Shown piece after piece: positions 14,334-52,331 of a stretch of DNA of 64,000 nucleotides. The position numbers and the translations under genes are program-made. The DNA is from Candidatus Melainabacteria bacterium (GTDB lineage Bacteria; Cyanobacteriota; Vampirovibrionia; Obscuribacterales; Obscuribacteraceae). Location: assembly GCA_003963305.1 (NCBI GenBank), contig RXJR01000006.1:182868-246867 (forward strand). The letters run 5' to 3'. The notes under the pieces were generated by a model. That model was not told the DNA's origin and searched no databases. It was given only the letters and a program-made list of their open reading frames with translations. Numbering within the stretch: the first letter of the stretch is position 1; every line of letters starts with the position of its first letter.

Positions 14334-15068
14334 CTACCAGGCTTGATCTTCCCAATCAGTTAGTTCAGCACGGTTTATCAGACCGCGCCGAAAGGCTATG
14401 TTTAGAGCACGACAGCGATGATTGTATTCATCTTCGTCTGAAGCTCCTTTACTGGAAATACCGAACTTTGTGTACAAACATTTAAGACGAGCTTGGACTG
14501 CCTTCTCAGTGATATACAAACGCTTCGCGGTAGCTTTATCAGTAAACCCGAGTGCGATACAAATCAGCACCTCAAATTCAGCTTCGGTCAATCCAGTAGC
14601 ACCACTTTCGGTGCGGCGAATAATTCTCTGAATGCGCGGATGAATCCAGCAGTCACCACTCAGAACGGCCTTAGTAGCGTCAATGACTTGCTGATCTGTG
14701 GAATCCTTCAAAACATATCCAAATGCGCCATCCGGAGGAACAAGCTTCCATAGCTTGCGCACGAATATTTCATCAGAATGATTGGATAAGATTATTACGC
14801 CCGTCTGAGGCATTTCCTTCAATATCTGTTCGGCCGATTTGATTCCAGAAAGCACCGGCATCTCGATATCGAGAAAAACAAGCGGTGGCTTATGCTCTCG
14901 AACAAGCTCAAGCGCGCGTTGACCATCAGCCGCCTCATAAAATGGTGAAAGCGATTCAAGGTTTTTCGAGAGCAACTCTCTCAGCCAGACACGCTCCCGC
15001 TCCTGATCGTCGGCTATTACAATGCCCAATAGAGAACGCTCCGAAGTTAGCGAGACAACCTTATACAT
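14334..15068 (-). CDS. NarL/LuxR-type response regulator (paralog of the one at 51609)
   Basis: 244 residues. The receiver domain (~13-135) has the acidic pair IADD (~20) and the phosphoacceptor Asp67 in VFLDIEMP, followed by LSN and a Lys in YVLKDS. The C-terminal helix-turn-helix (~165-215) reads LTEAEFEVLICIALGFTDKATAKRLYITEKAVQARLKCLYTKFGI, a LuxR/GerE fold. A tail (RCRALNIAFRRGLINRAEL) is shared almost word for word with the regulator at 51609. It starts 1 bp after the GTPase stop. It probably responds to the tandem-module kinase upstream and may bind the TGGGGT-NN-ACCCYA sites. Confidence 0.9.
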   Translation of the reverse strand: MYKVVSLTSERSLLGIVIADDQERERVWLRELLSKNLESLSPFYEAADGQRALELVREHKPPLVFLDIEMPVLSGIKSAEQILKEMPQTGVIILSNHSDEIFVRKLWKLVPPDGAFGYVLKDSTDQQVIDATKAVLSGDCWIHPRIQRIIRRTESGATGLTEAEFEVLICIALGFTDKATAKRLYITEKAVQARLKCLYTKFGISSKGASDEDEYNHRCRALNIAFRRGLINRAELTDWEDQAW

Positions 15069-15069
15069 G

Positions 15070-15651
15070 TCATTGTAACCTGTTTAAAATCTGCTTACTA
15101 ATCTGCTTGAGCGTAGTGAAGACTCCAGGTCCCGTAGAAGCAATGGATTCAAAGGAAACCACTTTACCTGTTGGATTCAAATCACTCTCCATCATCTCAA
15201 GACTCATAGCACTTGTGAGATCCCGTTTGTTGTATTGCAACACATAGGGAACTGACTGTAACGATAAGCCATAGCTTTCAAGATTCTCTTTCATGTTTTC
15301 TAGAGCATCGATATTTTCCTGACGTCTGACGATATCAGAGTCAGCCACGAAAATAATTCCGTCGGCGCCGTTTAAAATAAGCTTGCGGCTGGCGTTGTAT
15401 TCAACCTGTCCGGGAACTGTATACATCGAAAAGCGTGTTTTGAAACCTTGAACGGTGCCCAGGTCTAATCCAAAATAGTCAAAGAACAGCGTTCGTTCAG
15501 TCTCAGTAGCAAGACTGATAAAATCTCCGCGCGTCTGAGGCGCCAGCTGACTGTATATAAACTTCAAGTTTGCGGTTTTGCCACCAAGACCGGTGCCATA
15601 ATAAACGATCTTACAGTTAATTTCTCTAGTGAACAGATTTATCATTGCCAT
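15070..15651 (-). CDS. MglA/Ras-like small GTPase
   Basis: 193 residues. Small GTPases switch between GTP and GDP forms to control partners. Seen: the P-loop GTGLGGKT (19-26), the switch-II-like YTVPGQVEY (77-85), NKRD for guanine recognition (141-144) and SIASTGPGV as the final G box. This is the bacterial MglA branch (polarity/motility regulators). No MglB/Roadblock partner gene is next to it. It is followed within 1 bp by the response regulator and preceded, after a 156-base gap holding an operator-like palindrome, by the histidine kinase, so it may be a signalling component of that system. Confidence 0.88.
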   Translation of the reverse strand: MAMINLFTREINCKIVYYGTGLGGKTANLKFIYSQLAPQTRGDFISLATETERTLFFDYFGLDLGTVQGFKTRFSMYTVPGQVEYNASRKLILNGADGIIFVADSDIVRRQENIDALENMKENLESYGLSLQSVPYVLQYNKRDLTSAMSLEMMESDLNPTGKVVSFESIASTGPGVFTTLKQISKQILNRLQ

Positions 15652-15785: not shown

Positions 15786-15805
15786 ACCTGGGGTCCACCC
15801 TAACC
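15786..15805. promoter_or_regulatory. operator-like palindrome A, upstream of the GTPase-regulator pair
   Basis: ACCTGGGGTCCACCCTAACC. The core TGGGGT-NN-ACCCTA matches three other sites in this window. It begins 2 bases past the kinase stop codon and lies about 134 bases before the GTPase start, where a promoter for the two downstream genes would be. Confidence 0.6.
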
Positions 15806-15807
15806 AG

Positions 15808-17439
15808 TCAACCGGAAAGAAGTTGAATACAGATAGAAACTTTGGTGCCAGTTGGAAACGACATAGCACTTGTCCAATTGACTTCAGCGCCGATTGCTGA
15901 AGCACGCTCGCGAATATTCTTCAGCCCACGCGACAAGGTATTACGCGTGTCTCGAATGCCGCGTCCATTATCCTCTATCGAAACAATCAAGCTGCCGGCT
16001 CTTTCTTCTACGAGAACAGTTGTATGAGTCGCGCCGGAATGTTTCTCGATGTTGTTGAGGGCTTCCTGGGTAACACGATATATGGCGAATTTTGCCTCGT
16101 CTGAAATTTCAATGCGATCACGCTGAAGATTCGAATAGACAATTGCTTCTATCAAACTGGCGCGGCGAAATCTGTCGACAAGAGCCTGGATAGATGGAAT
16201 CAAGCCTGCCTCGGTCAACAATCGCGGATGCAGATCAGACATCACCGCACTGACGCCAGCAGCAATTAACTCCATTCTCCCAGTCACATCTTGAACCACT
16301 AATTGATCGCCTAAGTTGCCAGCGAGAAGCACAATATTTTCCAGGCGAGGAAGAATGAATCGATCAATCTCATCTGAAATATTCTTGCGTTCGGCGCCGA
16401 CCGCCAGGCTTTCAAAAAGCGCTCTGTCTCGGTTAATCAAACGAGCCCACTCGTCTTTAGCGTGCGCGAGAATAATATCTAATTCGGATAGTCTCGCTTG
16501 AGACAATTCATCAACATCGAACTCTTCACTAGCCATCACAGGCGATGCTTCCTCAGATATCGAAATCACCAGGTCGTTTGGAAACTGGTCGCGAGCCCCC
16601 AGTGAATCAAGTTGCACGCTAGCCCCGGCAAGAGAGCACCAGGCTTCAAATGCGTCAAAATCTGCTCTCTCCGCAGTAATCCACTGTGCGGAGGAAACGA
16701 GCTTATCGGCACAGCGAATCGTGATAACACTTTGGTCGTTGATACGCTGATATTGGATCATAAGCATGTCATTTTCGGATTCGACAAACATCTTCAAAAG
16801 CGCTTGAATGGCGCGATACACACAGAGTTGCTGCAGTCTGGATAATTGACATTCTTCAGCTTGTTCAAAGAACAAAATAAGACGTCCGCACCGCCTCATG
16901 TAACGCTTGCAGATATTGTCGATGGCTGGAAGCAACCCTAACTCTTCCAGATCTACTGGATGCAACTCGCCCAGCAAATCACGAAAGGCTGAGATGGATT
17001 GATGAACCTCGTCCACCAGAGCAGCGCAACTCGATGCAGCGGCGCTGGATGCAGCAGCATTGGATTCAGCGACGTTGGATGCAGCGCTGCCGGGTAAGCC
17101 CAGGTTTGGCGTACCGCCAGTTTGGGCTTGAACAGAGCGAATCAAACGTGCCAGCAATGGCAAACTCTCATCGTGCAATTCTTTTGCAACCCGATGTCGC
17201 TCTGCTTCAACAGCTGCAAACTCAAATTCAAATTGAATCATACGAGCTTCTGCATTCCAACGCGAACCAATATGACGGGCACGCGCCGCTATAGCAGATT
17301 TACTCGTCGCAGAGGTCGGCGGTGCCTGACTCTCAGCCAACGAAGAGCTTATCCTGGTTCGCACCAAAAGAGCCGAATACTCCGCCCATAATTTTTTCAT
17401 CGTCAAAAGCGATTGCAGTCGCGGCGGAAGTGCGACCAT
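15808..17439 (-). CDS. sensor histidine kinase with two HisKA_3/HATPase modules of complementary degeneracy
   Basis: 543 residues from the ATG at 17439. An upstream in-frame start at 17604 is possible, but the added 55 residues look non-coding and would run through a perfect palindrome; an ATG at 17400 is another choice. Module 1 has ERHRVAKELHDE with the phospho-acceptor His89, but its ATPase part lacks the N-box Asn and the Gly-rich G box. Module 2 has ERKNISDEIDRF, where the His is replaced by Asp, yet keeps a full ATPase: TQEALNNIEKHSG, EDNGRGI, GLKNIRERA. So His and ATP site sit in different modules. No membrane segment or sensor domain is visible, so it is likely cytoplasmic. An Ala/Ser-rich linker (~115-137) is encoded by short repeats. 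Confidence 0.85.
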   Translation of the reverse strand: MVALPPRLQSLLTMKKLWAEYSALLVRTRISSSLAESQAPPTSATSKSAIAARARHIGSRWNAEARMIQFEFEFAAVEAERHRVAKELHDESLPLLARLIRSVQAQTGGTPNLGLPGSAASNVAESNAAASSAAASSCAALVDEVHQSISAFRDLLGELHPVDLEELGLLPAIDNICKRYMRRCGRLILFFEQAEECQLSRLQQLCVYRAIQALLKMFVESENDMLMIQYQRINDQSVITIRCADKLVSSAQWITAERADFDAFEAWCSLAGASVQLDSLGARDQFPNDLVISISEEASPVMASEEFDVDELSQARLSELDIILAHAKDEWARLINRDRALFESLAVGAERKNISDEIDRFILPRLENIVLLAGNLGDQLVVQDVTGRMELIAAGVSAVMSDLHPRLLTEAGLIPSIQALVDRFRRASLIEAIVYSNLQRDRIEISDEAKFAIYRVTQEALNNIEKHSGATHTTVLVEERAGSLIVSIEDNGRGIRDTRNTLSRGLKNIRERASAIGAEVNWTSAMSFPTGTKVSICIQLLSG

Positions 17440-17555
17440 CGAAGTTTGCTCACATTGCAAGGGGCGCTGCAAACGTCGCCTCCAATCACCCACCAATGCC
17501 AATTCGATTCTCTCACAAGACGGCAAGCTGTGAACTGGGAGGGCAAGCAGGAGGC

Positions 17556-17575
17556 ACCTGGGGTTCACCCCAGGT
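17556..17575. promoter_or_regulatory. operator-like palindrome B, upstream of the tandem-module kinase
   Basis: ACCTGGGGTTCACCCCAGGT is a perfect inverted repeat: two 9-base arms around a 2-base centre. It is the best of the four TGGGGT-NN-ACCCYA sites. It lies about 117 bases before the preferred kinase start and about 125 bases before the divergent DJ-1/PfpI gene, so it could serve either. Confidence 0.7.
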
Positions 17576-43142: not shown

Positions 43143-45722
43143 CTATGCTGCTGGTGGGCTAATAACTCGATAAGCATGCCCTTTGAAGATGAGCGCGACT
43201 TCTCTGCCAACTGACAGATATTTCGAGATACCCGGCGTGTTGTGAATCAAATCGAAGTACTCTTTGCTGCCGAACTGAATCGTTACAGCCTTCGGTGCTG
43301 AACCTTCAGAGTACGTCGAATCAACCCAAACACCGTTGCGCAAGTAGAATGTCTTGTCTTCAATTGACTTGATCGCGGCTGATTCCTCATCTTTTGCCAT
43401 AGCAACAACATCAGTATTCTTCAGCTTGTTCACGGCCTTGGAATTCACTACCGCGACTTTACCACTGTCACCATATGCTCCTGCTTTCTTTTCGACAACC
43501 ATGGAGTGGGTCGATCTGAAGTCCCGTTCGTATGGCATGTAATCATACAATTCCGCGTGAGTACGAGAGCCGGCGAAGTGCACGCTTTTAGCCAGGCTCG
43601 ATTCTGGCATCCAAACGGGCGAGGCAGCGGGAGGAGGCGGAATCATGCCTGTCTCGGACATCAAGCGACCAGCAACCAGCGTACCGCGAATGTGGGATTC
43701 ACTGGCGGATTGCCGCGGGGAAGCGAAACCTTTAGCACCGCCGCCTCCCGGTACGGCTCCGATGAAGTCTAGTCCATTACGCATGCGACGCATGACATTA
43801 ACATCTTCACGACGCATCGGCATTGGACGATTGATTGCAGTGCCGTGACCTTCGCTTGGATCTGTGACAAGAAACGATGTGTAATTCGAGATGATGCCGT
43901 ATTTCTTTGACAAAGCGACGATTTCATCGACGACTTCTTTGCTGTCACCATTGTCCTGAGCTACTTCAGTCAAGTGTCCAATTCGTCTCATTGCCCACAA
44001 TCTAGGCAAGTAAGTGTGATCGGCCGAATTGCTTTCGAAGTTGAGCGGGAACGAGTAAGCTTTCGCAACGCCGTTCACTTTTCCAGTTAAGTTGACTGTG
44101 GCTTTGGCACCATTTTTGTATTTACCCAGCAACAGTACCTGCGATCCTGCGAAAATATCCTTCACTTCGCGAGGGTAAACATCCTTCACGGTGATGCCGT
44201 CATAAGCAATCGAAACGTTGCTCAGAACAGGGCTTTTGATTTTTTGATAGAAGCCTGAAAGAGCAGTCTCAAGATTTTCCGATGGTTCGACATACTGGGC
44301 GGAGCCATGATGTTCTTCAGCAAGCTTGTTCAAAAGTTTGGTGTTCACATCGTAGCCGACACCAAAATCAAAGATTCTGGTATCACGCTTTGGAGCGATT
44401 GATTTGAGCAAAGTCGAAACATTTGTTTCACCTACAGTGGGCTCACCATCAGTCATCAGAACACAATACGCAGGTCTGTCGCTGACTTGATTGAGCATCG
44501 TCAGACCAGTGTGCATTGCATCACTGATATTCGTTCCGCCACGAGCTTCAAGATCATCGATAAAAGCGGCGGCAGCCTTCTTATTTTCAGGAGTGGCTGG
44601 AACGACTTGCGGCTTGAATGATTCAACGTCAGTAGCGAACTGAACGATGCTGAATTTGTCAACCGGTGAAAGTGCATCCACAATGTACTTGAGCGCTTTT
44701 TTGGTCTGAACTATTTTGTCGCCTTGCATCGAACCAGAGGTGTCAGCAACAAGAACAATGTCCTTGCCGATCACTTCTTTGCTCTGTACAGGTGGTGTCA
44801 ACGTCAGCAAGAAATAACCATCTTCACCTTCGTTTTTATGTGTCAGTAAGTTTGCAGCCAGGTCCTTGTTAGACACGCTGTAATACAGCAAGAAATCTTT
44901 GTCTGGAATGGAGTTATGCGCCAACATCGTTACTTTGGCTTGATTGTTATCTGAACGATTCGATGAAATTGTGTGAGTAGGCGACCAGATGGTACGCAAT
45001 CCCTGCTTGCTGTTCAATTTCGCGTCAATCTTCACTTCATCGATTGGTTCACTTTCACCTTCTGCCTTTAGCGGAAAACGATATTTCAACATTCCATTTT
45101 CGGCATGCAAAATCTGCGTATATTCGAGTTCGACTTTCTTTGTGCCGTGAGCAGGAATCGGAAAAATTCGAGCGCGCACAGTCTTATAGTCAGCGTATTC
45201 AAGCAACCCCGGATCGACCATACTACGAACAATTTGCTCGTACTGAGTGCGCGCCTCTTGAGCTTCGAGAATCTTACCCTCAACAGGCTTGCCATCTATA
45301 TGCAACGAAAATGAGCTGAAGGTAGTGTCTTCAGGCAAAGGAAACAGATAAGTTCCTGCCAGATTTCGATCGGTGTCATTCGAAAATGTCTGCGTAATGT
45401 ATGTTTTAGCAACCTGGTCGGTGATATCGACCTTAATCTGTTCAGATTGCATGTGCAAACCAAACGAGACACCGCCCTTCAAGATCGGACGAGGGCCAGG
45501 AGTCGGAATCGGAGGAGTAACAGGTCTGCCCGGGTGCGGGTTCACAGGATGAACCGGACGGACAGGGGGGATGGGAGCGGGAACCGGTGTCATCGGAGGC
45601 ATGAGCAGAGCGCCTCCGGACACAGCAGAATCGATGACAATAAAACCAGATGCTTGCGACATCGGCGATAAAAGAATCGTGGCTGCTAGAGACAACGCTG
45701 ATGCAAGAGCCAGTCGTTTCAT
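43143..45722 (-). CDS. secreted VIT-vWA (inter-alpha-trypsin-inhibitor-like) protein
   Basis: 859 residues. Signal peptide 1-24; a Pro-rich linker (~40-80, PVRPVHPVNPHPGRP). A VIT domain (~85-215) has TQTFSNDTDRNLAGTYLFPLPEDTTFSSFSL and VPGLLEYAD-like text (MVDPGLLEYADYKTVRARIFPIP). A vWA domain (~320-495) has DTSGSM..DK, GGTNIS and MTDGEPTVGE, a full MIDAS. A C-terminal part (~650-859) is unassigned. GAGG precedes the ATG. Probably an envelope adhesin or scaffold. An operator-like palindrome shared with the two kinase loci lies 191 bases upstream. Confidence 0.88.
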   Translation of the reverse strand: MKRLALASALSLAATILLSPMSQASGFIVIDSAVSGGALLMPPMTPVPAPIPPVRPVHPVNPHPGRPVTPPIPTPGPRPILKGGVSFGLHMQSEQIKVDITDQVAKTYITQTFSNDTDRNLAGTYLFPLPEDTTFSSFSLHIDGKPVEGKILEAQEARTQYEQIVRSMVDPGLLEYADYKTVRARIFPIPAHGTKKVELEYTQILHAENGMLKYRFPLKAEGESEPIDEVKIDAKLNSKQGLRTIWSPTHTISSNRSDNNQAKVTMLAHNSIPDKDFLLYYSVSNKDLAANLLTHKNEGEDGYFLLTLTPPVQSKEVIGKDIVLVADTSGSMQGDKIVQTKKALKYIVDALSPVDKFSIVQFATDVESFKPQVVPATPENKKAAAAFIDDLEARGGTNISDAMHTGLTMLNQVSDRPAYCVLMTDGEPTVGETNVSTLLKSIAPKRDTRIFDFGVGYDVNTKLLNKLAEEHHGSAQYVEPSENLETALSGFYQKIKSPVLSNVSIAYDGITVKDVYPREVKDIFAGSQVLLLGKYKNGAKATVNLTGKVNGVAKAYSFPLNFESNSADHTYLPRLWAMRRIGHLTEVAQDNGDSKEVVDEIVALSKKYGIISNYTSFLVTDPSEGHGTAINRPMPMRREDVNVMRRMRNGLDFIGAVPGGGGAKGFASPRQSASESHIRGTLVAGRLMSETGMIPPPPAASPVWMPESSLAKSVHFAGSRTHAELYDYMPYERDFRSTHSMVVEKKAGAYGDSGKVAVVNSKAVNKLKNTDVVAMAKDEESAAIKSIEDKTFYLRNGVWVDSTYSEGSAPKAVTIQFGSKEYFDLIHNTPGISKYLSVGREVALIFKGHAYRVISPPAA

Positions 45723-46106
45723 ATTTCGTCCTCTTCATAAGTGCCAGTAAGCAAAGCGATCGTCTGTTCAGTAACAACAGCTTGAATCTCGTTTTTAGTA
45801 GTAAATGCCAGCGAAAAGATCGAGCCTGACTACTATTCGAGACGATCACAGGTTGCCTAGTGATAGGTTACTGCCAGCGTCGCCCACTTACTGCCGTCAA
45901 AACATGCAAGAAATTCTGGGGTATACCCTAGAGTAATCCGAATTTGCCCGCAGACTGTACACACCTGGTGCAATGAATTGGCCGGCAGACTAAGACACCG
46001 GGTGCAATAGAGGTCGCACAGCCTGTACATACCTGGACCAAGACTCCAGGCTCTTTGATTGATGAGCCTGGAGTCTAAGGTTGGCGGTAACTTCCTGCGA
46101 GCTTAA
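45723..46106. other. upstream region of the VIT-vWA gene
   Basis: 384 bases. It contains palindrome C (45914-45933). A near-duplicate phrase, CAGACTGTACACACCTGGTGCAA and a diverged copy, appears around 45953 and 46020. No gene seen. Confidence 0.5.
45914..45933. promoter_or_regulatory. operator-like palindrome C, upstream of VIT-vWA
   Basis: TTCTGGGGTATACCCTAGAG. The core TGGGGT-AT-ACCCTA matches sites A, B and D. Confidence 0.6.
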
Positions 46107-49657: not shown

Positions 49658-49677
49658 CTTTGGGGTTTACCCCAGCC
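49658..49677. promoter_or_regulatory. operator-like palindrome D, upstream of the CHASE2 kinase operon
   Basis: CTTTGGGGTTTACCCCAGCC. The core TGGGGT-TT-ACCCCA matches sites A-C and ends 60 bases before the kinase start. Confidence 0.65.
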
Positions 49678-49737
49678 ATTTGCCGAAAAAGCTAAGCTAG
49701 ACTACTCTTGGAGCAGAGAGATGTTCCGAGGAAAACA

Positions 49738-51609
49738 ATGAGGCTATCGCTGGCGCCCGCTAAACGCCTGCTTCCCGCCGGACTAAAAGTACACGGACGC
49801 GACGGACTCCTGTTCCAACGCCTGTTTTGGGGTGCCATGGCAGGCTGTCTGGCGACATTGCTCCTGGCAGAATCGCCCATCCTGGAATCGATGGAACTTA
49901 GCATGCTCGAGTGGCGGTACAAAGTGGCGGACAAGATCTCAACAATTTTTCCAAAGCAAAAGAAATCGCAAGATATATGTCTTGTGAATTTCGATGATTT
50001 ATCGCAATTCGATATGGGTGTAGCGCGCTTCAACGACAGCGCCTCTCAGGAGAAGCTAGCAGAGGCACTCAAGGTAATTGAAAGCGGGCAACCGACGATG
50101 GTTGTGCTCGATCTTGACTTGCGAGGCGCCACCAATCCCGAACTCATCTCTACCATCAAGCGGTTTCGCAACGTCATAGTGGCACTGTTCGGCAGCCTCG
50201 AAGGAAGCACCGAATTGCCAGCCGCCGAATTTCTTTCACATGCAGCCTCATATGGTTATGACGAACTGATTCACGAGCAAAACGGGCTGGTCTGCCGCTT
50301 GCCCATAAATTATCGCGGCATCGACAATAATACTGAAGGATTCACAGCCGAAGGGCTGGCACCGGTTCCTTCGCTCACCGAGGCGGTGATCGACTACTAT
50401 CGGCGCGTCAAAGGCGTCGGTCCGCCCAGCCAATTCTTTTCGGTCCCTTCAGACCAACCTTTATATATGAGTTACCGGCGCATCGATTATCCGACTATTT
50501 CCCTGCGAGATACGGTGCAGCCTGATTTCGACCCATCTATGTTTCGCGACCGCATCGTCATCGTCGGTTCGACGTTCACTCAACGTCACAATGATGTGAA
50601 GAAGAAGAGCCCGTTTCAAGAGTCCGTGCCGGACATAAACCTGCATGCCGACGCCATTTCTACACTCCTTAACGACGACGTGATTTACAGTTTTCCGAAA
50701 AATATCTCACACCACCTGTTGCTTCTTATTGGTGCCGCATTTGGTGCAGTTGCTTCCATTCTGCCGCTTGGCATGAGAACCGCGGCCTATCTGTTCACCT
50801 CAATGAGCCTGGTCGTAGTGGCTCAGCTGGCATTCCAGGTCTTCCATCTCGCTCTGCCGACCGCCTCACCACTGGCGGTGCTGACACTGGGATTCAGCCT
50901 GGGCACATTCATTTACCTGGACACGGACTTGAGGCAAAGAAACAGAGAGTTAGCCCAGGCACGCGAGTCGATGCAGGTGCGCGCCGAAGAGGAACGCCAG
51001 CGCATTGCTGAAGACTTGCATGACGAAACCCTGCCGGCGCTATCTTCCGTAGCGCGCATGGCCGATCGGCTCGCCCACGAGCTCGAAGACAATCCTGTGC
51101 CCAGTCTGATGCGTGAGAAGCTGGACCATGCTGTTGTTGAGATGCGTCGCGTTATAAACGATTTGCATCCGTCTGTTCTTGAGACCATGGGCTTCAAACC
51201 GGCCATCGAGAATCTTGTCGCCATTTGCGCCCGAGAGACGGGCATTGAAAGCAATTTCGAAGATGGAGATGGGCGCTCAGACTACAACATGACCAATTTC
51301 ACCAAGCTGCAACTTTACAGAATCGTCCAGGAGAGTCTTAACAACGTCCAGAAACACTCGGGTGCCTCGATAGTAGAACTAAATATCCGTGAAAATGACG
51401 GTTATCTTTTCATCGTTGTGACGGACAATGGAAAAGGTATCAATTTTAAGGCTATTCGTAAGGATGCCCACGGGCTGCTCAACGTTCGCCAGAGAGCACA
51501 ATTAGTTGGCGCTATAGTCGAATGGAAAAAGCCAGAAAAATATCCCACAGGAACCGAATTGAGGCTTAAGATACCAGTCGTAGAAACTCCAACCACGGGT
51601 GAAGCTTGA
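49738..51609 (+). CDS. CHASE2-domain sensor histidine kinase (HisKA_3)
   Basis: 623 residues. The ATG at 49738 has GAGG upstream; a TTG at 49708 is less likely. Order: TM1 (~28-45), CHASE2 extracytoplasmic sensor (~55-315; LDLDLRGATNPELI, DRIVIVGSTF and PDINLHADAISTLL are typical), three TM segments (~325-395), HisKA_3 with EEERQRIAEDLHDE (His428), and HATPase (VQESLNNVQKHSG, VTDNGKGI, GLLNVRQRA). It senses an outside signal, phosphorylates itself and passes phosphate to the next gene product. Stop and next start overlap (TGATG). Confidence 0.92.
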   Translation: MRLSLAPAKRLLPAGLKVHGRDGLLFQRLFWGAMAGCLATLLLAESPILESMELSMLEWRYKVADKISTIFPKQKKSQDICLVNFDDLSQFDMGVARFNDSASQEKLAEALKVIESGQPTMVVLDLDLRGATNPELISTIKRFRNVIVALFGSLEGSTELPAAEFLSHAASYGYDELIHEQNGLVCRLPINYRGIDNNTEGFTAEGLAPVPSLTEAVIDYYRRVKGVGPPSQFFSVPSDQPLYMSYRRIDYPTISLRDTVQPDFDPSMFRDRIVIVGSTFTQRHNDVKKKSPFQESVPDINLHADAISTLLNDDVIYSFPKNISHHLLLLIGAAFGAVASILPLGMRTAAYLFTSMSLVVVAQLAFQVFHLALPTASPLAVLTLGFSLGTFIYLDTDLRQRNRELAQARESMQVRAEEERQRIAEDLHDETLPALSSVARMADRLAHELEDNPVPSLMREKLDHAVVEMRRVINDLHPSVLETMGFKPAIENLVAICARETGIESNFEDGDGRSDYNMTNFTKLQLYRIVQESLNNVQKHSGASIVELNIRENDGYLFIVVTDNGKGINFKAIRKDAHGLLNVRQRAQLVGAIVEWKKPEKYPTGTELRLKIPVVETPTTGEA

Positions 51610-52331
51610 TGACGATTATGATCGTTGATGATGAAGAAAGAGACAGAATGTGGCTTAAGAACCTTCTGGTTCAGAACTTTCCGTCGGATCAACCCATCCA
51701 TGAAGCTCACGACGGGCAGCAAGCCGTTGACATGGCACTGAAAATCAAGCCCAATCTGGTCTTTCTCGACATCAAAATGCCGAACCTGTCGGGTATCAAA
51801 GCGGCAGAGGCGATTTTACAGAAGCTGCCGGAGACCGGCGTAATCATGCTCTCAAACTTTTCCGACGAGGTTTACGTCAGACAGTTATGGAAGATTGTGC
51901 CTCCAAACGGCGTTTTCGGTTACGTCCTCAAGAACGCCTCGAACGAGCAAGTCGTGGAAGCTGCAAAAGCCGTCATGTCCGGCGATTGCTGGATACATCC
52001 GGGTATCGCCCGCGTCATTCAACGCACCCAGAACCGCGCCACCAGTTTGACAAGCGCAGAATATGAAGCCCTGGTCTGCATCGCTCTGGGTATGACCGAC
52101 CATGCCATCGCCAAACGACTCTATTTGACGGAGAAGGCGGTTCAATCACGCTTGAAGTCTTTATACGCAAAATTGGGAATTCCAGGTCGCGGCGAATCAC
52201 ACGAAAGTGAATTCAATCAGCGCTGCCGAGCCTGCTATGTCGCCACTCGCCGCGGATTAATCAACCAGACGGAGTTGGACGATTGGGAATCAAAACTCGA
52301 CGAAAAGAAAGGGGGGCCTGCTCAGGTCTAG
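51609..52331 (+). CDS. NarL/LuxR-type response regulator (paralog of the one at 14334)
   Basis: 240 residues. Receiver with IVDDEERD (acidic pair at 7-8) and phosphoacceptor Asp54 in VFLDIKMP. LuxR-type helix-turn-helix (~155-205): LTSAEYEALVCIALGMTDHAIAKRLYLTEKAVQSRLKSLYAKLGI. The tail RCRACYVATRRGLINQTELDDWE matches the 14334 protein closely. Its start overlaps the kinase stop by 1 base, and the downstream secreted protein gene starts 5 bases after it. Likely the cognate regulator of the CHASE2 kinase and a candidate binder of the TGGGGT-NN-ACCCYA sites. Confidence 0.93.
   Translation: MTIMIVDDEERDRMWLKNLLVQNFPSDQPIHEAHDGQQAVDMALKIKPNLVFLDIKMPNLSGIKAAEAILQKLPETGVIMLSNFSDEVYVRQLWKIVPPNGVFGYVLKNASNEQVVEAAKAVMSGDCWIHPGIARVIQRTQNRATSLTSAEYEALVCIALGMTDHAIAKRLYLTEKAVQSRLKSLYAKLGIPGRGESHESEFNQRCRACYVATRRGLINQTELDDWESKLDEKKGGPAQV

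Follow-up and report, generated by a model that had tools for sequence, protein, structure and literature searches.

The window analysed here, a stretch of 64,000 nucleotides from a Candidatus Melainabacteria bacterium, contains one minus-strand gene that encodes two DHp-CA kinase cores, and its product is likely a HisKA_3 histidine kinase of the split-duty kind, whose single chain combines two modules that are obligately complementary. In the mechanism that we favour, the CA domain of module 2 would use ATP to phosphorylate His89 of module 1 while the DHp regions of both modules are paired, either inside a single chain or across two, and the phosphorylated module 1 would in turn pass the phosphate to the LuxR-type regulator encoded two genes downstream. 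Since the enzyme resides only in module 2 and the His only in module 1, the DHp heterodimer would have to act across two protomers; a handedness of phosphotransfer across protomers is known from DesK. The gene and its elements are as follows.

15808..17472, minus strand: gene of the predicted split-duty histidine kinase in its probable full length, read from the TTG, about 554 amino acids
16885..17214, minus strand: module 1 DHp region, residues 76-185; HisKA_3 match, His in 14/14; His89 codon at 17173-17175
16549..16872, minus strand: degenerate CA domain of module 1, residues 190-297; the model still shows the fold, N and G boxes are gone
16405..16506, minus strand: linker, residues 312-345; in the alignment with L015 and L019 it matches the post-membrane helix encoded by the stand-alone module 2 gene
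16150..16404, minus strand: module 2 DHp-like region, residues 346-430; Asp359 (codon 16363-16365) replaces the His
15820..16107, minus strand: module 2 intact CA domain, residues 445-540; Pfam HATPase_c, Z 17.4 to the VraS CA domain, motifs invariant in 13/13

Positions 15808-17439 of the minus strand form an open frame of 543 amino acids with an ATG at 17439. The true start is probably the TTG at 17472, which would add 11 residues to the ATG frame; we prefer it because a GGAGG sequence (17479-17483, just upstream of 17472) and the peptide ahead of the ATG, LQRPLQCEQ, are conserved in the three related genomes compared (the window, G034 and G033). The start codon behind the GGAGG is TTG in the window and in G034, and GTG, one codon earlier, in G033.

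Fourteen genomes, all from one GTDB family, carry the gene; the search covered 50 genomes in the family and 382 in the class. Searches of the class (382 genomes) and the phylum (386) yielded no copies beyond these 14, and matches to the module 1 profile outside the family were weak, with E-values of 4e-16 or worse. A contig scan with the window protein returned a single relative, SZAS-4, a MAG of the cyanobacterial phylum that is also the nearest named one. The fused copies comprise 12 open frames, one of them cut by a contig end.

The preliminary description, made from the window alone, held that module 1 keeps the His (ELHDE) and has lost the ATP-site Asn and the G box, whereas module 2 has a full ATP site and Asp at the position of the His. 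Both motif readings are confirmed. His89 lies within ERHRVAKELHDE (ELHDE), and the His is present in module 1 of all 14 genomes, a count for which our set of ordinary kinases, picked by a His-requiring pattern, provides no control of retention frequency. LHDE, R98 and R101 are likewise invariant in module 1 (14/14). The equivalent site in module 2 of the window protein reads ERKNISDEIDR, with Asp359 instead of His; among the 13 sequences spanning the relevant region, out of 14 genomes, this position is D, N, E or S and never His, and the Asp is not itself conserved. The ATP site of module 2 is complete, with EALNNIEKH (NNxxKH), EDNGRG (DNGxG) and SRGLKNIRERA (RGLK), and its N, G1 and G2 motif residues are invariant in 13/13. 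Correspondingly, the module 1 site is degenerate (QALLKMF, CADKLV, without a glycine-rich G2 box) and in the window protein its boxes have lost the Asn as well as the two Gly. The Pfam assignments follow the same division: in the window protein HisKA_3 matches only at residues 80-99 and HATPase_c, above cutoff, only at residues 452-539, and the module 1 CA region of this protein has no Pfam HATPase match. In the window, the HisKA_3 match of module 1 (PF07730, 6.3e-05) scores 23.9 bits, just short of the cutoff of 24.0; in L016 it lies above the cutoff. The expectation that orthologues would share this layout was borne out as well: among 14 module 1 and 13 module 2 sequences no copy has both motifs in both modules, and His and an intact ATP site occur together in one DHp-CA module in none of the copies examined.

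Judged by sequence comparison, the rate of conservation tracks the duty of each domain. The mean pairwise identity is 0.65 for DHp1, the highest in the protein, 0.40 for CA1, 0.37 for DHp2 and 0.52 for CA2, and it reaches 0.82 in the N2 box of module 2. The CA domain of module 1 carries invariant or near-invariant residues, e.g. W267, A273 and a DK pair, and the Asp of its G1 box is seemingly retained (ADK/VDK) in most copies. Because these residues are kept, the domain is not simply decaying and may still bind something. In genome G022, the N-box position of module 1 is occupied by an Asn, the other ATP-site motifs being absent. HisKA_3 kinases have a described DxxxQ phosphatase motif (PMC3510030, PMC5231405), which is widespread among them though not found in all; in module 1 the position of its Gln (H+5) is Pro94, which is invariant (HDExLP), and the motif is absent. 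As the usual HisKA_3 Gln is thus replaced by Pro, the sequence suggests a weak phosphatase activity. In addition, the window protein contains an Ala/Ser-rich low-complexity insert (17041-17121, minus strand, residues about 107-133) in the loop joining the two DHp1 helices; most relatives have about 26 residues fewer here.

Structure prediction is in line with the domain reading. In the single-chain model of the full protein (pLDDT 73.5), one DHp-CA unit follows another, and their elements are arranged in the same order. The preliminary description had taken the first half for a kinase module, and module 1 modelled alone indeed folds as DHp-CA (pLDDT 80.3), with Z-scores of 12-14 to domains of DosS, VraS and DesK and a best Z of 13.8; module 2 matches the CA domain of VraS with the Z of 17.4 given above. 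Both halves are thus predicted to adopt the DHp-CA fold; the models are single chains, and the pairing of the modules lies outside their reach.

The profiles of module 1 and module 2 are homologous (E 1.9e-14), and in the tree the module 1 sequences form one clade and the module 2 sequences another, with support of 100/100 and 100/99. Because each module forms one fully supported clade, the two lineages appear to have separated once, before the divergence of these genomes. The duplication proposed in the preliminary description remains the likely origin, but the claim that the duties were then split within one chain needs revision. In G016 (locus L015) and G027 (locus L019) the modules are encoded by separate, overlapping genes, each with a ribosome binding site of its own and with the same division of motifs; Pfam detects HisKA_3 in the first gene alone and HATPase_c in the second alone. 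Because the separate genes already show it, the division of duties is, by this comparison, independent of residing in one chain. In L015 the start of the second gene lies within a TTGA overlap preceded by GGAGG, and in L019 within a ATGCGTAA overlap preceded by GGGGGAG. Each separate-gene protein starts with hydrophobic N-terminal segments; such segments are absent from 11 of the 12 fused frames, and the twelfth (G025) has a marginal one. Pfam found no HAMP domain in the separate genes, where one had been suspected.

These features suggest a history in which the gene of a membrane HisKA_3 kinase would have been duplicated into two adjacent, translationally coupled genes, which would then have divided the work between them; fusion and loss of the membrane segments would have followed in the lineage of the window, perhaps more than once. 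Fusion was thus probably a later step than the division of labour. The split-to-fused direction rests mainly on architecture, and the trees leave the number and direction of fusions unsettled: the separate-gene forms sit among the fused ones and are not clearly basal, and the GTPase plus regulator weakly reject one clade of all fused forms (p 0.029), whereas all four proteins do not reject it (p 0.26). The placement of the separate forms among the fused ones would also suit the reverse history of the same enzyme, with the fused chain first and a split into two genes occurring twice. However, membrane segments and a coupled start would then have had to arise separately in each half, and the homology between gene 1 and gene 2 of L015 extends through the membrane-proximal region, as expected from the duplication of a membrane kinase gene; we therefore regard the reverse order as unlikely.

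Downstream of the kinase gene lie the two further genes of the operon, and paralogues of kinase and regulator are found elsewhere in the window.

15070..15651, minus strand: MglA-type small GTPase; MglA structures matched by phmmer at 1.7e-68; found in every operon copy
14334..15068, minus strand: NarL/LuxR-type response regulator, probable phosphate recipient by synteny; Response_reg and GerE domains
49708-51609, plus strand: paralogous CHASE2-HisKA_3 histidine kinase with both duties in one module
51606-52331, plus strand: LuxR-type regulator of the CHASE2 kinase; the pair (49708-52331) lies 32 kb from the operon

The order of kinase, MglA-type GTPase and LuxR-type regulator is kept wherever the contig allows. 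The operon GTPase retains the P-loop, TVPGQ (PM3) and NKRD motifs, and analogy with MglA in polarity systems suggests that it may gate or read the kinase. It is a paralogue of the family-wide MglA; besides this slow-evolving family-wide copy (G000:C1:563573-564148) and the operon copy, many genomes contain further ones. In the operon regulator the phospho-acceptor Asp is intact, and the DD, FLDIEMP, S/T and K motifs are kept in all operon copies. This regulator is a paralogue of the one linked to the near family-wide CHASE2 kinase, and the CHASE2 kinase-regulator pair likely represents its parental type. Moreover, two lone regulators, L104 (4467-5381, minus strand) and L105 (5855-6553, plus strand), are about 77% and 66% identical to the operon regulator. 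No kinase or GTPase lies beside them in the G014 and G028 loci inspected, and they are possibly remnants or orphans.

The operon and the CHASE2 pair have a palindrome in common, YTRGGGTNNACCCYAR, of which the 7.48 Mb genome contains four exact copies, all within this window; the reversed control pattern has no copies in the same 7.48 Mb.

15788..15803, no strand: palindrome CTGGGGTCCACCCTAA, between the kinase and GTPase genes
17558..17573, no strand: palindrome CTGGGGTTCACCCCAG, upstream of the kinase gene
49660..49675, no strand: palindrome copy upstream of the paralogous CHASE2 kinase and its regulator
45916-45931, no strand: palindrome copy about 190 bases upstream of a VIT/vWA-like gene

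The palindrome core is found between kinase and GTPase in 10 of 14 genomes, including the window, and upstream of the kinase in five. The palindrome TRGGGTNNACCCYA, located at the operon and at its paralogue, is a good operator candidate for one or both regulators. The gene downstream of the fourth copy (43143-45722, minus strand) encodes a long secreted protein that was judged VIT/vWA-like by eye and is a possible target of the system.

Of the proposed complementary degeneracy, the pattern itself stands, being kept in 14 genomes, and service of the His by the other module is its most probable explanation. It is improbable that another kinase, such as the CHASE2 paralogue 32 kb away, phosphorylates the module 1 His and that the two-module protein is not itself a kinase but a regulatory heterodimer partner in the manner of RetS/GacS. 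Kinases of the RetS type, with another kinase as their target, have been described (PMC4866733), and the CHASE2 kinase-regulator pair, nearly family-wide, shares its palindrome with the operon. However, module 2 keeps all ATP-site motifs in 13/13, which would be needless in a purely regulatory partner, and a dedicated regulator is linked in every copy. We give little credence to a version in which module 2 phosphorylates a substrate without module 1, the latter being a passive platform for dimerisation or docking whose His is unused: HisKA_3 DHp regions do also serve dimerisation and regulator binding, and the module 1 CA domain has lost its ATP motifs, but His, LHDE, R98 and R101 are invariant in 14/14 while the module 2 equivalent drifts between D, N, E and S, and the receiver residues of the regulator are intact.

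An artefact, i.e. a frame error, a chimera or a decaying pseudogene, is hardly conceivable. The assemblies are metagenome-derived, and the two-gene forms could be read as frameshifts; yet the frames are open in the 12 fused copies (the one interrupted copy ends with its contig), the three-gene order is fixed, and the two-gene junctions have a start/stop overlap, a ribosome binding site and hydrophobic segments of their own, none of which is expected of a frameshift. The conserved motif pattern already refutes this reading. Taken together, we lean towards a wider view of the split-duty kinase, namely that a DHp-type (non-CheA) kinase was duplicated and, through complementary losses, turned into an obligate pair, that it exists as two coupled membrane genes or as one soluble chain, fused possibly more than once, that it forms a three-gene unit with an MglA GTPase, and that the fused protein would be a natural heterodimer within a single chain, its sequence fixing which way the phosphate is transferred.

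By its motifs, the system belongs to the split kinases, the acceptor and the catalytic site lying on different modules or proteins. In Mycobacterium tuberculosis, Rv0600c/Rv0601c act with one regulator, TcrA, the ATP site being in one protein and the His coming from the neighbouring gene; this is one kinase broken into two domains, unlike the two duplicated DHp-CA modules described here. Acceptor and catalytic duties likewise reside on different polypeptides, neither of which works alone, in the CheA3/CheA4 split kinase of Rhodobacter sphaeroides (PMC3591291). That pair is, however, of the CheA type: its His is carried by an HPt (P1) domain of its own, and entire domains are missing, whereas here two full DHp-CA modules with complementary degeneracy are present, mostly in one chain. 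Hik36/Hik43 of Synechocystis, from the same phylum, also split the duties between two proteins (PMC7656254), but they are of the CheA/PilL type rather than HisKA_3, their genes are far apart, and they are not fused. Pfam detected neither an Hpt nor a CheW domain in the window protein or the separate-gene forms, but HisKA_3 and HATPase_c instead. Since 3.66% of HisKA proteins were counted as lacking a HATPase domain (PMC3591291), further split kinases may exist.

The DHp-CA fold and the HisKA_3 motif are shared with DesK, VraS, LiaS and NarX, the group that contains the best structural matches of both modules; these kinases, however, combine both duties and DxxxQ in a single module, where DxxxP is found here. 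The operon GTPase is homologous to MglA (E 1.7e-68) with the motifs kept, but it is linked to a kinase and a LuxR-type regulator and is the paralogue, not the family-wide MglA itself. In the open literature searched, outside which most subscription papers lie, we found no HisKA_3 pair of full modules with complementary losses that occurs both as two genes and as one chain. The split kinases that we found there are of the CheA type, and the present system is best called a new variant of split kinase. As a rule, a histidine kinase is a homodimer whose copies each combine both duties, and this obscures the direction of phosphorylation between protomers as well as the evolution of the two sites. 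In the present system the duties are separated within one fold and both two-gene and one-chain forms are kept, so that handedness, the need for DHp pairing and the sequence of duplication, division and fusion become testable with few point mutants; moreover, the linkage of a soluble kinase to an MglA-type GTPase is a combination that invites study.
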